A stretch of 64,000 bases of DNA, from positions 124,001-188,000 of the forward strand of contig NZ_ACJN02000004.1 in assembly GCF_000174435.1 (NCBI RefSeq), read 5' to 3'. Shown in pieces: positions 25,370 through 44,120 of the stretch. Numbering within the stretch: the first letter of the stretch is position 1; each line of letters opens with the position of its first letter. The notes below the pieces were generated by a model that was not told where the DNA came from, made no database searches, and saw only the letters and a list, made by a program, of their open reading frames with translations. The stretch comes from Desulfonatronospira thiodismutans ASO3-1. GTDB lineage: Bacteria > Desulfobacterota > Desulfovibrionia > Desulfovibrionales > Desulfonatronovibrionaceae. Position numbers and translations under genes: made by a program.

Positions 25370-26176
25370 ATGTATCAGGCTTACGGCGTACTGGGACGGA
25401 CACTGGGACATTCCCTGAGCCCCTATCTGCACAACTGTGCCTTTCAGGCCGCAGGCATGAAGCGGGTGTATCTCAAATGGGAGATTGAACCGGAAAATCT
25501 GGGTGACTTTATACGAGCGGTGCGCATTCTGCCCCTGTCCGGGGCCAGCGTCACCATCCCCTACAAGGAGGATGTCATGGAGTACCTGGACTATATAAGC
25601 CCGGAAGCATCCGACATGGGTGCTGTAAATACCCTGTACTGGCACAGAAAAAGCCTTTGCGGGACCAACACCGACTGCAGGGGTTTTATGGCCCCCATAG
25701 AAGACCTGCAGCTGGATTCAGCTCTGATCCTGGGAGCAGGAGGAGCCTCGCGGGCTGTACTCTACGGCCTGAAGCGCATGGGCATATCAAACATATACCT
25801 GACCAACCGCAGCAAAAAAAAAGCCCTGGCAATGGCCGGGGAATTCAACGTAAAAAGCATACCCTGGGATGAACGCTACCGTCTCAAGGCGGACCTGCTG
25901 GTGAACACCACCCCCCTGGGTACCGCCGGGGATCTGCAGGACCTCTCCCCCTGGGAAAGCAGCATCTTCCCCTTCAAGATAGTCTATGACCTGGTGTACA
26001 ACCCGCTGCAGACAAGGCTTCTGCAGCAGGCCAGGGCGCATGGAGCCCATACGGTATCAGGGCTGAGCATGTTCGTGCACCAGGCCTTGAAGCAGTTCAA
26101 GATATGGACCGGCCAAGGCTTTGATCCTGGATGGGCAGAGGATCTACTGCAACGAAAAATCACCGGGGAGATATGA
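25370..26176 (+). CDS. aroE: Shikimate dehydrogenase
   Basis: A 268-residue NADP-dependent enzyme that reduces 3-dehydroshikimate in the chorismate pathway. It has the substrate motif GHSLSPYLHN, the catalytic Lys in VTIPYKED, the Asp in NTDCRGF, the Rossmann loop LGAGGASRAVLYGL, and NRSKKKA for the NADP phosphate. A CAGGAG site precedes the ATG. It is probably co-transcribed with the methyltransferase gene upstream. The GTCNGAC array begins 10 bp after its stop. Confidence 0.92.
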   Translation: MYQAYGVLGRTLGHSLSPYLHNCAFQAAGMKRVYLKWEIEPENLGDFIRAVRILPLSGASVTIPYKEDVMEYLDYISPEASDMGAVNTLYWHRKSLCGTNTDCRGFMAPIEDLQLDSALILGAGGASRAVLYGLKRMGISNIYLTNRSKKKALAMAGEFNVKSIPWDERYRLKADLLVNTTPLGTAGDLQDLSPWESSIFPFKIVYDLVYNPLQTRLLQQARAHGAHTVSGLSMFVHQALKQFKIWTGQGFDPGWAEDLLQRKITGEI

Positions 26177-26186
26177 GGAGTACCGA

Positions 26187-26277
26187 GAGGCTGTCGGACT
26201 TGTCGGACTGGTCTGACCTGTCTGACCTGTCGGACCTGTCCGACCCGTCAGACCCGTCTGACCTGTCAGACAGCCTC
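26187..26277. repeat. GTCNGACNN 9-bp tandem array, copy 1
   Basis: Nine consecutive 9-bp units of form GTC-N-GAC-NN start at 26193. They are bracketed by GAGGCTGTC (26187-26195) and its reverse complement GACAGCCTC (26269-26277). The palindromic core is held while the central base takes all four values. Forward frames can read Ser-Asp-Xaa repeats. It lies between the convergent ends of aroE and korC. A second array is at 42896-42994. Confidence 0.85.
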
Positions 26278-26312
26278 CAGAAATCACTCCATATCATCCT
26301 GCCTAAATCCCC

Positions 26313-26408
26313 AATCCCTCAATCCCTCAATCCCTCAATCCCTCAATCCCTCAATCATTCAATCCCTCAATCATTCAATCCCTCAATCCCTCAATCATTC
26401 AATCCCCC
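26313..26408. repeat. AATCCCTC / AATCATTC 8-bp tandem array
   Basis: About twelve 8-bp units alternate between AATCCCTC and AATCATTC. The last unit supplies the final codons and stop of korC (stop at 26397-26395). It is related to the array at 647-744. Confidence 0.85.
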
Positions 26409-26940
26409 CTGCCCCGGCCTCCAGGGCCTGTGCATTCTGGGGCAGGAGGTTGTGGTACCTCTCGGGAATTACCTGGGCAAGACTGTCCTTGACTGTCTGC
26501 AGAGAAACTATACCGGTGGTCTCGACATATGCCCCCAGGGCCACCATATTGGCCAGCCTGGGATTGCCCAGATCGTTGGCGATGTCGTTGGCCTTTACCC
26601 CCCTGGCCTGAAGGCGGCTTGAGTCCGCAAGTCCGGGCTCCACCTGGGAAGCATTGAACACTACTGTGCCCCCCTTTTTCACCCTGGGCTGAAACTTTTC
26701 CATGGAAGGCCGGTTCATGGCAATGAGGGTGCCGGGGCTTTTGACAATAGGTGAACCCACTTCCTGATCCGAGATGACCACCGTGCAGTTGGCTGTGCCG
26801 CCGCGCATTTCTGGACCGTATACGGGTATGTAAGTCACATGCAGTCCGGAATGCATGGCTGAAACCGCCAGCAGGTTGCCCATGAGCATCACCCCCTGGC
26901 CCCCGAAACCTGCGATTATTACGTCCTGGTACACGCTCAT
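26395..26940 (-). CDS. korC: 2-Oxoacid:ferredoxin oxidoreductase, gamma subunit
   Basis: A 181-residue gamma subunit of the 2-oxoacid:ferredoxin oxidoreductase family. The N-terminal IIAGFGGQGVMLMGNLLA motif and GPEMRGGTANCTVVIS are family hallmarks. It belongs to the complex that oxidatively decarboxylates a 2-oxoacid (2-oxoglutarate or a branched-chain oxoacid), yielding acyl-CoA and reduced ferredoxin. The ATG overlaps the korB stop by four bases. The last codons (GGIE) and the stop lie in the AATC array, so the C-terminus has been shaped by repeat sequence. Confidence 0.88.
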   Translation of the reverse strand: MSVYQDVIIAGFGGQGVMLMGNLLAVSAMHSGLHVTYIPVYGPEMRGGTANCTVVISDQEVGSPIVKSPGTLIAMNRPSMEKFQPRVKKGGTVVFNASQVEPGLADSSRLQARGVKANDIANDLGNPRLANMVALGAYVETTGIVSLQTVKDSLAQVIPERYHNLLPQNAQALEAGAGGIE

Positions 26941-33969: not shown

Positions 33970-34929
33970 GTGCAGGCTCAGGAGTTGGCAGACTATACCC
34001 ATCAGCCGGTGATGCTTGAAAAAGTCCTTGAGCTTCTGGCCCCTGCCCCTGGAGGGCGCTACCTGGACGGCACCCTGGGCTTGGGCGGACATTCACTGGC
34101 AATACTCAAGGCCTGCAAAGGTGAATGCAGCATTCTGGGCATGGACATGGACCAGGAGGCCCTGGAACTGGTTGCAGAAAACCTGGAAGAACAGCAGGGC
34201 GGGTTGCACATGGTCCAGGATGCTTTCCATAATTTTCAGGAATATCTCCAGGAGCTGCAGTGGCCTGGACTGGACGGAGCCCTTCTTGATCTGGGCATGT
34301 CCTCGCTGCAGCTGGATAAAAAGGAAAAAGGATTCAGCTTTATCCATGATGGACCTCTGGATATGCGCATGGGCCTGGCCCAGGGCTTCCCCCCGGCATC
34401 CAGCCTGGTGCAGAACGCGTCCTTTTCCAGGCTGAAACAGATAATCTATGAGCTGGGCGAGGAGCCCATGGCCCCCAGGATAGCCAGGGCCATAATCCAG
34501 GCCAGGGAAAAAAGCCCCATAAATACCACCCTGGAACTGGCCCGCATAGTGGAGCAGGCCTACCCGGCCCAGAGACGGCGGGCGGCCAGGAATCATCCGG
34601 CCACCAAAACATTCCAGGCCCTGCGCATGGCCACAAACAAAGAACTGGAGAGCCTGCAGGATTTTCTGGAAAAAATCGCCCCCTGGCTCAGGCCCGGGGC
34701 AAGGCTGGTGGTAATCTCCTTTCATTCCCTGGAAGACAGGATGGTAAAACAGTATCTGCGCAGGCAGGCATCTGACTGCATCTGTCCGCCAAGGTCTCCT
34801 GTATGCAGCTGCAGCCATAGAAAAACTCTGGAAATTTTAACCAGAAAGCCCCTGACCGCTTCGGAAAGGGAAATAAGCCGCAACCCCAGAAGCAGAAGCG
34901 CTAAACTAAGGGCGGCTCAAAGGGTTTAA
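33970..34929 (+). CDS. rsmH: 16S rRNA (cytosine1402-N4)-methyltransferase RsmH
   Basis: A 319-residue SAM-dependent enzyme that methylates C1402 of 16S rRNA. It has the N-terminal HQPVMLEKVLELL, the SAM loop YLDGTLGLGGHS, LDLGMSSLQLD, FSFIHDGPLDMRM, and VVISFHSLEDRMVKQYL near the C-terminus. The start is a GTG with AAGGACAGG upstream. It is the second gene of the dcw cluster. A 14-bp tandem array begins at the very next base after its TAA stop. Confidence 0.93.
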   Translation: MQAQELADYTHQPVMLEKVLELLAPAPGGRYLDGTLGLGGHSLAILKACKGECSILGMDMDQEALELVAENLEEQQGGLHMVQDAFHNFQEYLQELQWPGLDGALLDLGMSSLQLDKKEKGFSFIHDGPLDMRMGLAQGFPPASSLVQNASFSRLKQIIYELGEEPMAPRIARAIIQAREKSPINTTLELARIVEQAYPAQRRRAARNHPATKTFQALRMATNKELESLQDFLEKIAPWLRPGARLVVISFHSLEDRMVKQYLRRQASDCICPPRSPVCSCSHRKTLEILTRKPLTASEREISRNPRSRSAKLRAAQRV

Positions 34930-34998
34930 GGGCATAGGGCATGGAGCATAGGGCATGGAGCATAGGGCATGGTGCATAGGGCATGGTGCATGGGGAAG
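34930..34998. repeat. 14-bp tandem array GGGCATGGAGCATA
   Basis: Four full 14-bp units (GGGCATGGAGCATA or GGGCATGGTGCATR) plus a leading half unit start at 34930, exactly after the rsmH stop. GGAGCATGGAGCATGGAG at 61276-61293, after the LUD gene, is a related fragment. Confidence 0.85.
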
Positions 34999-41593: not shown

Positions 41594-42895
41594 ATGCAGG
41601 AGATGGTGCACAAAGATCAGTTGAAAGGCCACAAGGCGGTGGTAGTGGGCGCTGGCCGTTCAGGCCTGTCCGCCGCTGCCCTGCTTGAGTCCCTGGGAGC
41701 CGGGGTACGACTTCTGGAGAAGCGAACCGACTTTGATGTCTCCCAGCTGGATTCCAGAGGGTTGTTCAACGTGGAGCCTGTCCTGGGAGAGCACAGACCG
41801 GAGCATTTCCAGGGCGCGGACCTGGTGGTGGTCAGTCCCGGCATCTCCCTGGCCATGGTCAGGGGTCTTTGCCCGGCAGGCCAGACCGTGATCTCGGAGC
41901 TTGAGCTGGCTTCCTGGTTCATTTCCGAACCTGTCATCGCCGTCACCGGCACCAACGGCAAGACCACCACCTGCATGCTCATTCAAAAAGTCCTGGAAAA
42001 AGCCGGACGCAGGGTGTTCACCGGCGGCAACATAGGAACCCCGTTGAGCGATCATGTGCTTTCGGGAAAAAGAGCCGACATACTGGTCCTGGAGGTAAGC
42101 AGCTTTCAGCTACAAGGCTGCAGCGGGTTTACCCCGCACGTGGGTGTGCTGCTCAACTTCTCCGCCAACCACCTGGATCACCATGAAAGCGAAGACGAGT
42201 ATTTCAGAGCCAAGATGCAGCTCTTTGCCCGCCAGGGCCCCATGGACCTGGCTGTACTGCCCCTGGACCTGAGAGCAAGGGTGGAGTCTGATTTCAGAAT
42301 CAAAAGCAATATCACCTACTTTGCCCCCACGGGAAGATTTCATTGCCCCGGCCTGCCCGGGGCACACAACCAGGCCAATATGGAGGCGGCCATGCTGGCC
42401 TGCGGCTTTGTGGACGTAAGCAGAAATATCTTTGACCAGGCCCTGCTTGAATTTGTCCCCCCGCCGCACCGGCAGGAGGTGTTTCTACAGGACAAAGGGG
42501 TGCGCTACATCAATGACTCCAAGGCTACCACTCTGGAAGCCATGACAGCCGCCCTCAAGGCCTTTGACTCACCCATCAGGCTGCTGGCCGGGGGAAGATA
42601 CAAGGGCGGGGACTTTTCCCTGCTGGCCGGCACCCTGCAGGAAAAGGCGGCCAAGGTTTACCTCTTCGGCGACAGCCGGGAGATATTTGAAGACGCCTGG
42701 AAAAACAGCGCTGACATGGAGCACTTCGCGGACCTGGAGCAGGCCGCAGCCAGGGCGGTGCAGGAAGCAGGTCCCGGAGACAATGTACTTTTGTCCCCCG
42801 GCACCTCGAGCTTTGATCTTTTCAATAATTACCAGGAGCGAGGGGAGGCCTTCAAGGTAGCCGTGAGAAAGGCAACCGGCATAACACTGCAGTGA
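41594..42895 (+). CDS. murD: UDP-MurNAc-L-alanine:D-glutamate ligase MurD
   Basis: A 433-residue cytoplasmic ligase. It has the N-terminal UDP-binding Rossmann loop VVGAGRSGLSAAALL, the ATP loop VTGTNGKTTTCMLIQ, FSANHLDHHES, and the C-terminal block INDSKATTLEAM. It is placed as usual between mraY and ftsW. A GTCNGAC array starts at the base after its TGA stop (42896), separating it from ftsW by 115 bp. Confidence 0.95.
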   Translation: MQEMVHKDQLKGHKAVVVGAGRSGLSAAALLESLGAGVRLLEKRTDFDVSQLDSRGLFNVEPVLGEHRPEHFQGADLVVVSPGISLAMVRGLCPAGQTVISELELASWFISEPVIAVTGTNGKTTTCMLIQKVLEKAGRRVFTGGNIGTPLSDHVLSGKRADILVLEVSSFQLQGCSGFTPHVGVLLNFSANHLDHHESEDEYFRAKMQLFARQGPMDLAVLPLDLRARVESDFRIKSNITYFAPTGRFHCPGLPGAHNQANMEAAMLACGFVDVSRNIFDQALLEFVPPPHRQEVFLQDKGVRYINDSKATTLEAMTAALKAFDSPIRLLAGGRYKGGDFSLLAGTLQEKAAKVYLFGDSREIFEDAWKNSADMEHFADLEQAAARAVQEAGPGDNVLLSPGTSSFDLFNNYQERGEAFKVAVRKATGITLQ

Positions 42896-42994
42896 GTCGG
42901 ACCCGTCTGACTGGTCCGACCTGTCGGACACGTTGGACTTGTCGGACTGGTCAGACACGTCGGACACGTCAGACCGGTCAGATACGCCGGACAA
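42896..42994. repeat. GTCNGACNN 9-bp tandem array, copy 2 (murD-ftsW junction)
   Basis: Eleven consecutive 9-bp units begin at the base after the murD stop. Nine keep GTCNGAC exactly; unit 5 is GTTGGAC and the last two are GTCAGAT and GCCGGAC variants of the core. The frame is open into ftsW and would read Ser-Asp repeats from a TTG at 42933. Confidence 0.85.
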
Positions 42995-43010: not shown

Positions 43011-44120
43011 ATGACCAGCAATAAAAACGCCGCCAAAAAACAGGGGCCGGATCTGTGGCTCCTTTTCTCGGTGCTCATTCTGGCCGGGCTCGGGCTTATG
43101 ATGATCCTGAGCACCAGTGCGGTCATGGCTGAACGGTATTATGCGGACAAATACTTCTTTTTCAAACGCCAGCTCCTTTTCGGCCTGGCTGGAATGTTGG
43201 TCATGTACCTGGGTTGCAGGATCAACAGAGAAGTGCTGTACCGGCTTCGCTATCTCTGGGTGGCCGCAGCTCTTGCCCTGCTGGCGGTGACGGTTTTCAC
43301 ACCCTGGGGCTATGCAGCCGGAGGCGCCACCAGATGGGTAAGCCTTGGTTTTTTCAACATTCAGCCCCTGGAACTGGCCAAGGTGGCCCTGGTCATTTAC
43401 CTGGCCTGCTTTTTTGCCTTCAAGCAGGACAAGGTCAAGACCTTCAGCGTGGGCTTTTTGCCGCCTACTGTGATTACCGGCTTATTCTGCGCTCTTTTGC
43501 TGCTGCAGCCCGACTTCGGAGGGGCGGTATACATGGCCGGGCTTTTATTTCTTTTGAGCCTGGTGGGAGGAACCAGGATCATTTACCTGTTCTCCTCTTC
43601 GGTGCTGGCCGGGATAACCGCCGTTGTCCTGGTGCTGCAGTCGCCCTACAGGTTCAGGAGATGGTTTTCCTTTCTGGATCCTTTTCAGGACGCCCAGGAT
43701 GCAGGATATCAACTGGTACAATCCCTGTACGCCTTTGGTTCCGGGGGAATCTGGGGCATGGGGCTTGGCGAAGGTAGACAGAAGCTCTTTTTTCTGCCGG
43801 AAGCGCACAACGACTTTATTATGGCCGTGGTGGGCGAGGAACTGGGCTTTATCGGGGTATCACTGGTCTTTATCGTTCTGGGGATCCTTCTTTGGAGGGT
43901 GCTGGTCATCTGCATGTCCCAGAGTGACCTGGTGGACAGGTTTGCAGGGCTGGGCATGGGAATGATCATTATCCTGGGGGCCCTTTTAAACCTGGCGGTT
44001 GTTCTGGGGGTCATCCCTCCCAAGGGACTGCCCATGCCCTTTATCAGTTACGGAGGCAGCAGTCTGCTTGTGTCTTTCTTCTGCGCGGGCTTTCTGCTCA
44101 ACCTATCCAGGAGCAGGTGA
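43011..44120 (+). CDS. ftsW: SEDS-family septal glycosyltransferase FtsW
   Basis: A 369-residue SEDS protein with about ten TM helices. It polymerises septal glycan with FtsI. Family motifs include ILSTSAVMAERYY near the first helix, AAGGATRWVSLGFFNIQPLE-LAK, LQPDFGGAV, YQLVQSLYAFGSGGIWGMGLG, and PPKGLPMPFISYGGSSLL near the end. The frame is open upstream through the GTCNGAC array, but a Ser-Asp-rich leader from a TTG is unlikely, so the ATG at 43011 is chosen; its ribosome site is poor. It overlaps murG. Confidence 0.93.
   Translation: MTSNKNAAKKQGPDLWLLFSVLILAGLGLMMILSTSAVMAERYYADKYFFFKRQLLFGLAGMLVMYLGCRINREVLYRLRYLWVAAALALLAVTVFTPWGYAAGGATRWVSLGFFNIQPLELAKVALVIYLACFFAFKQDKVKTFSVGFLPPTVITGLFCALLLLQPDFGGAVYMAGLLFLLSLVGGTRIIYLFSSSVLAGITAVVLVLQSPYRFRRWFSFLDPFQDAQDAGYQLVQSLYAFGSGGIWGMGLGEGRQKLFFLPEAHNDFIMAVVGEELGFIGVSLVFIVLGILLWRVLVICMSQSDLVDRFAGLGMGMIIILGALLNLAVVLGVIPPKGLPMPFISYGGSSLLVSFFCAGFLLNLSRSR

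Follow-up and report, generated by a model that had tools for sequence, protein, structure and literature searches.

TAACTGA heptamers have been described in Beggiatoaceae, Cyanobacteria and Bacteroidetes, and the accessible text of that report gives their mobilising mechanism as not known (MacGregor 2015, PMC4679880). The GGGAATC / GGGGA(C/T)T heptamers of Xanthomonas and Nostoc belong to the G-quadruplex type, and their function is not known (PMC4692102). BrickBuilt is a minisatellite inside a MITE, described in one species, Porphyromonas gingivalis, with a 23-bp unit (PMC4596501). REPs are hairpins of 20-40 bp with GTAG or CGTC tags, and the GTAG types are linked to RAYT (PMC3733652). Judging from the accessible text of these sources, these are the published kinds closest to the arrays presented here, and none of them has a GTCNGAC unit. 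We found no published description of GTCNGAC arrays in the open-licence literature, where six two-unit forms of the repeat gave no match and the GTCNGAC string itself occurs in three papers on other subjects; an earlier description elsewhere is possible.

We analyzed a stretch of 64,000 nucleotides from the soda-lake bacterium Desulfonatronospira thiodismutans ASO3-1 (contig NZ_ACJN02000004.1, positions 124,001 to 188,000), referred to as the window. The repeat unit is GTC-N-GAC-NN, 9 bp long, with a palindromic core, and the units are joined head-to-tail. The sequence-only reading of the window had claimed two such arrays, and both were present at the places given below (window coordinates).

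25370..26176, + strand: aroE-type gene (shikimate dehydrogenase; Pfam Shikimate_dh_N, SDH_C), upstream of array 1
26187..26195, + strand: left arm of the array 1 bracket, sequence GAGGCTGTC
26193..26271, no strand assigned: GTCNGAC array 1, nine 9-bp units between convergent genes
26269..26277, + strand: right arm of the array 1 bracket, sequence GACAGCCTC
26395..26940, - strand: POR-type oxidoreductase subunit (Pfam POR), convergent, on the other side of array 1
41594..42895, + strand: murD (Pfam Mur ligase domains, MurD-like_N), its stop abutting array 2
42896..42992, no strand assigned: GTCNGAC array 2, eleven 9-bp units directly 3' of the murD stop codon
43011..44120, + strand: ftsW-type gene (Pfam FTSW_RODA_SPOVE), downstream of array 2

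All nine cores of array 1 were perfect GTCNGAC. Eight of the eleven units of array 2 were perfect, while the other three read GTTGGAC, GTCAGAT and GCCGGAC. The end of array 1 had been placed at 26273, which includes the last spacer; the last core ends at 26271. The bracket claimed for array 1 was also found, and its two arms pair with each other in DNA and RNA folds. These arms are unchanged in one congener (G001) and altered in two others (G006 and G002). Array 1 folded far better than its shuffles (z = -5 to -6, DNA and RNA). The DNA fold of array 2 was weakly better (z = -1.2 and -2.0), and the RNA folds of both arrays beat the shuffles (z = -2.8 to -6.4). The window also holds a 14-bp tandem repeat, GCATAGGGCATGGA, at 34929-34995 (4.6 copies, 96% matches). 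Octamer arrays of AATCCCTN lie at 649-743 and 26302-26406 and at about 40 further places of the genome, and one of them begins 30 bp from array 1. Their core AAT(C/T)CC is kept and two positions vary.

We searched the whole 4.1-Mb genome with a three-unit pattern and obtained 39 exact matches, compared with none for the backward-read control. When one mismatch was allowed, the counts were 54 and 5, respectively. Therefore the GTCNGAC arrays are not a product of chance. With a seed of three perfect units at least nine arrays were located, all of them at a stop codon or no more than 23 nt after one: six start or finish 0-23 nt past a stop codon, and the other three overlap a reading frame at its end. 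They lie in four convergent and five codirectional gaps and in no divergent gap (n = 9). Flanking genes, as assigned by Pfam, include murD, ftsW, aroE, the POR-type subunit, a T2SS F-type gene, fdhD, a menaquinone gene and a sigma-54 activator; no common theme was found among them. The distance between successive perfect cores was 9 in 166 of 177 cases and 18 in the remainder. Constant-length units joined head-to-tail, as in a bacterial long-unit simple sequence repeat or minisatellite, were thus found at nine loci.

Conservation was assessed on units that lie between perfect units and were themselves unselected by the search (177 units, Desulfonatronospira). The consensus base was present at the six core positions, in order, in 94.9, 100, 98.3, 97.7, 100 and 98.3% of the units, T2 and A6 being invariant (177 of 177). 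The corresponding values were 32% for the centre and 43% and 40% for the spacers. The same pattern, with a kept core and free centre and spacer, was observed in Prevotella ihumii (165 units). Other groups agree, but their core figures are inflated because four perfect units served as the seed for finding them. At the edges, the first two flanking units retained 3.1 and then 2.2 of 6 core matches, followed by a background of about 1.5. Core changes were few and showed no evident strand preference; A6->G was seen in 0 of 177 units of the genus and C->T was rare. Near-identical units of a minisatellite should carry mutations over all positions, whereas here the variation was confined to the centre and the spacer.

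A core is likewise kept in the AATCCC octamer arrays of this genome (AAT 98-100%, CC 95%, other positions variable; 56 units, with figures partly inflated by internal duplications). Since the octamers are not palindromic, symmetry is not required for conservation of the core alone, and this similarity weakens any inference from dyad symmetry. Inverted template switching was rejected as the source of variation at the free positions: it predicts complementary exchanges, while neighbouring units commonly had G/A or C/T at the centre (by eye). Perfect mirror hairpins, hinted at by some P. ihumii arrays, were rejected as well, as shuffling of centres and spacers gave no general excess; in Desulfonatronospira, mirror pairing of centres and spacers was not above shuffles (mean z = -0.5).

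The unit had been said to read Ser-Asp-Xaa on both strands, which is correct, because its reverse complement is the unit again. It had also been held that palindrome and protein reading are inseparable. This is so for the two loci alone, but the wider data separate them: T is nearly absent from position 7 (GAC, hardly ever GAT) and most arrays begin past a stop codon. A reading in which the arrays are kept as Ser-Asp-Xaa repeats, on either strand, has the frame of the genes that enter them in its favour. A gene runs into an array at four loci in two genera (L264, L265, L266/L307, L315), and the frame is Ser-Asp in 4 of 4, so that the earlier remark on the frame is right as a consequence of the unit. 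The Ser-Asp-Xaa tails at the gene ends of L264, L265, L266, L307 and L315 comprise about 4 to 25 repeats, and the genes bearing them include fdhD-type and menaquinone biosynthesis genes, the others having no assignment. In public contigs, 36 of the 71 long open frames that lie over arrays were Ser-Asp (p = 0.002 vs one third), a count biased because the remaining frames stay open less often. The ftsW frame is open upstream through array 2 as Ser-Asp-Xaa in three of the four species and is broken in G002; the ATG at 43011 is conserved together with the sequence around it. Against a protein code stand, besides the scarcity of GAT, the biased frame count and the break in G002, the six of nine arrays that start after a stop codon and the mostly intergenic position of the P. 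ihumii arrays. We consider such a code highly improbable. We read the run-ins as a sign that a hydrophilic stretch and a TGA-free frame are tolerated, not as the cause of the arrays, and the constraint acts on DNA (or RNA), not on a Ser-Asp code.

A search of the complete genome and of relatives had been proposed, and it gave, besides the nine loci at gene 3' ends, common junctions in three congeners. The murD-ftsW array has 11 units in D. thiodismutans, 18 in G006, 8 in G001 and 5 in G002, with both junctions kept; such a difference in unit number between close relatives at one site is that of a minisatellite. The aroE junction likewise bears an array in G006, G001 and G002, with both junctions kept and different units. 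Every array fetched from these three congeners sits at a junction that is also array-bearing in D. thiodismutans, and the number and order of units at the common junctions vary among the four Desulfonatronospira species. An array of G006 was also found in record PWSL01000162.1 (Desulfonatronospira sp. CSSed11_143; L060). Three further congeners (G003, G004, G005) had no GTCNGAC arrays; the murD-ftsW array was absent from G003 and G005, and the aroE array from all three. One array in another genus of the family (G010, L315) lies next to a gene with a 69% alignment to that of L266. The comparison of relatives had been suggested as a means of telling neutral slippage from function. Its outcome lies in between: the positions are inherited, the contents are not, and sister species are without arrays.

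Across the phylum, a four-unit match was found in 12 of 394 sampled genomes (backward control 0). Single genomes of unrelated groups had 734, 668, 269, 223, 150 and 118 such matches, with 0-2 for the control, the richest being P. ihumii (734), a Verrucomicrobia (668) and a Lentisphaerae (269). The genome contigs scanned contained at least 114 array stretches, some of which, inside long reading frames, may be protein repeats. Array-bearing groups among the matches listed were Lentisphaerae, Verrucomicrobia, Bacteroidales, Deltaproteobacteria, Hydrogenedentota, Sumerlaeota, WOR-3 and others. Of the 120 genomes from the P. ihumii genus, only 3 had arrays. A few very rich genomes beside nearly array-free relatives form a burst pattern. 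Viral contigs gave at least 120 stretches (L142-L261) with three-unit arrays, one of which (L179) had six matches in 6.7 kb. The array-bearing contigs L083, L087, L036, L063 and L108 also carry further repeats of 9 or 10 bp whose motifs are related (TCCGGATAT, GATCGGACC, TGATCGGAC, GTCCGTACAA, ACGGACTTTT).

We read 35 arrays of P. ihumii (G429), 27 of which were placed: 12 in codirectional, 10 in convergent and 5 in divergent gaps, therefore with no promoter preference. The flanks paired beyond the 5% shuffle limit in 14 of the 35 arrays. The arm AACCCAAATCG was present at 13 of the 35 (background 2%), and it ends a MITE-like element (247 and 233 matches on the two strands). Copies of this element (L378-L407) have the ends AACCCAAATCGGTCGTTAG and, in most cases, an interior of 159 bp that comes in at least two types. 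Of the 30 copies read, 3 carry a five-unit GTCNGAC array where the interior would be. Thus an array can sit within the inverted ends, and such arrays probably spread with them. A second family of inverted-repeat arms (GCCAAAT...GTTTT / AAAAC...; L336, L340, L341, L348, L353) seems to have central GTCNGAC arrays as well. Around the Desulfonatronospira arrays no MITE-like ends were found beyond short arms at three loci. Some of the P. ihumii arrays, but not all, lie between the inverted-repeat ends of a multi-copy element, as in BrickBuilt; in the window only the short bracket of array 1 was seen.

We observed directly the sequence of the arrays, their copies across the genome, the inherited junctions with turnover of units and the conservation restricted to the core, and likewise the sporadic cross-phylum bursts and the placement inside MITE-like ends in P. 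ihumii. Taken by itself, the classification of the arrays as a palindromic long-unit repeat family is likely right. The fuller account, in which a palindromic simple repeat family with long units turns over in place, occasionally proliferates and keeps its core through dyad symmetry, is our tentative preference, to which we give somewhat less than an even chance. The array would then be a non-coding 9-bp repeat just 3' of genes in Desulfonatronospira, with units gained and lost in place at inherited sites; in occasional lineages it would multiply strongly, and it could ride in MITE-like inverted-repeat elements. Growth and repair of arrays may rely on the unit's dyad symmetry, with the units of a single strand folding onto one another while the DNA is replicated or transposed, and the core would be kept because both processes depend on that symmetry. 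Units whose core is broken would fail to be amplified and would decay at the edges of the array. The bases of centre and spacer would lie in loops or mismatches and be free to vary. Such an array would propagate itself and be tolerated at the ends of genes, and would be neither a regulatory code nor a protein motif. The weak DNA fold of array 2 and the missing mirror pairing of centres and spacers in Desulfonatronospira speak against this account. No mobilising enzyme was found for the arrays. Symmetry alone is insufficient to explain why one particular palindrome recurs, and the positions inherited in four species could instead reflect a host function.

The sequence-only reading had offered three roles: a binding array, a folded RNA and a spreading simple repeat. 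The last fits best, the first is less likely and the folded RNA is weak. A putative dimeric DNA-binding protein, recombination or nucleoid factor might recognise the GTC/GAC half-sites, which we regard as rather unlikely. GTCNGAC presumably resembles FadR/LldR operators. Six fixed bases in perfect dyad with a free centre and spacer have the look of a dimer site, and the invariance of T2 and A6, the scarcity of core changes, which have no evident strand preference, and the positions inherited in four species all agree with one; the core-keeping octamer would fit a second recognised motif. The GTCNGAC string also occurs in the accessible text of papers on LldR and fatty-acid regulation. That occupancy at a 9-bp period affects expression, topology or segregation, with selection keeping the six contacted bases, is equally on the unlikely side. 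The three array-free congeners, the flanking genes without a common theme and the lack of a promoter preference in P. ihumii argue against it, and 117 array-free genomes of that genus beside one with 734 matches would be odd for a regulon. No candidate binding protein was identified. If a trans-acting system present sporadically in many phyla recognised the half-sites and built, amplified or rearranged the arrays, a distinctly unlikely case, the core would be the recognition sequence; that unit number and the content of centre and spacer would be its output is no more probable.

Transcribed arrays could fold at mRNA 3' ends into long hairpins that serve to protect the transcript or to terminate transcription, a role proposed for REPs too. 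The position of the nine arrays directly 3' of genes, in convergent and codirectional gaps only, the RNA folds of both arrays and the outer stem at array 1 are consistent with this; still, the reading is unlikely, as array 2 lies within the murD-ftsW cluster, where termination is unexpected, pairing of centres and spacers shows no excess, A6->G, tolerable in RNA pairing, is missing from 177 units, and 5 of the 27 placed P. ihumii gaps are divergent. A known RNA family was rejected, as the arrays had no Rfam match, and so was an intrinsic terminator, as neither array 1 nor array 2 has a T run or terminator. Plain neutral slippage, by which a chance 9-mer expanded at some junctions with meaningless content, agrees with the variable number and order of units between close species, with array-free sister species and with other tandem repeats nearby. 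However, slippage should copy and mutate all nine positions alike, whereas three vary by 30-42% within arrays and six by 0-5%, and the same core recurs in unrelated phyla with the backward control near zero. Since the junctions are inherited in four species and the core is constrained, plain slippage is insufficient. Unless some mutational bias leaves the core untouched, the position-specific conservation has largely refuted it, and we hold it to be very unlikely.

In summary, one and the same 9-bp palindrome has expanded in individual members of distant groups (Desulfobacterota, Bacteroidales, Verrucomicrobia, Lentisphaerae, Hydrogenedentota and others), with six of its bases fixed and three drifting. 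An old question thereby becomes testable: why given short motifs turn into tandem repeats across the genome in some few bacteria but not in species closely related to them, the candidate causes being symmetry-dependent replication, a dedicated enzyme or binding of a host protein. P. ihumii, with hundreds of matches beside nearly array-free relatives, is a practical case for such a study.

As far as the accessible text goes, the GTCNGAC arrays are similar to the TAACTGA repeats in being short intergenic tandem repeats with an exact motif, present at many loci in some genomes and sporadic (PMC4679880). They differ in that the TAACTGA unit has 7 bp, lies mostly upstream of start codons and not just after stops, and has no free positions described there. 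REPs are, like our arrays, extragenic palindromes near gene 3' ends in convergent and unidirectional gaps (PMC3733652), but GTCNGAC is a 9-bp tandem unit with no tag (by inspection). A REP/RAYT origin was rejected, as the richest genome, P. ihumii, is without Y1_Tnp; the count was 0 also in G430, G433 and G001, and inside the family Y1_Tnp counts track the arrays loosely. The genome of D. thiodismutans itself has 31 Y1_Tnp (IS200-type transposase) matches, many more than its congeners. The GGGAATC repeats share with our arrays the intergenic position at many loci, mostly the same gene pairs in relatives with extensively varying length and sequence, and the under-representation of divergent gaps, although they are 7 bp long and of the G-quadruplex type (PMC4692102). 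The AATCCC octamers of the window are closer to them than the GTCNGAC arrays are, and the G-rich strand of the octamers resembles the quadruplex-forming GGGAATC repeats of Xanthomonas. BrickBuilt (PMC4596501) differs from our arrays in unit length (9 bp here), and the Desulfonatronospira arrays were found without MITE ends; the tandem repeats of P. ihumii are like it in lying between inverted-repeat ends and in being intergenic and multi-copy.
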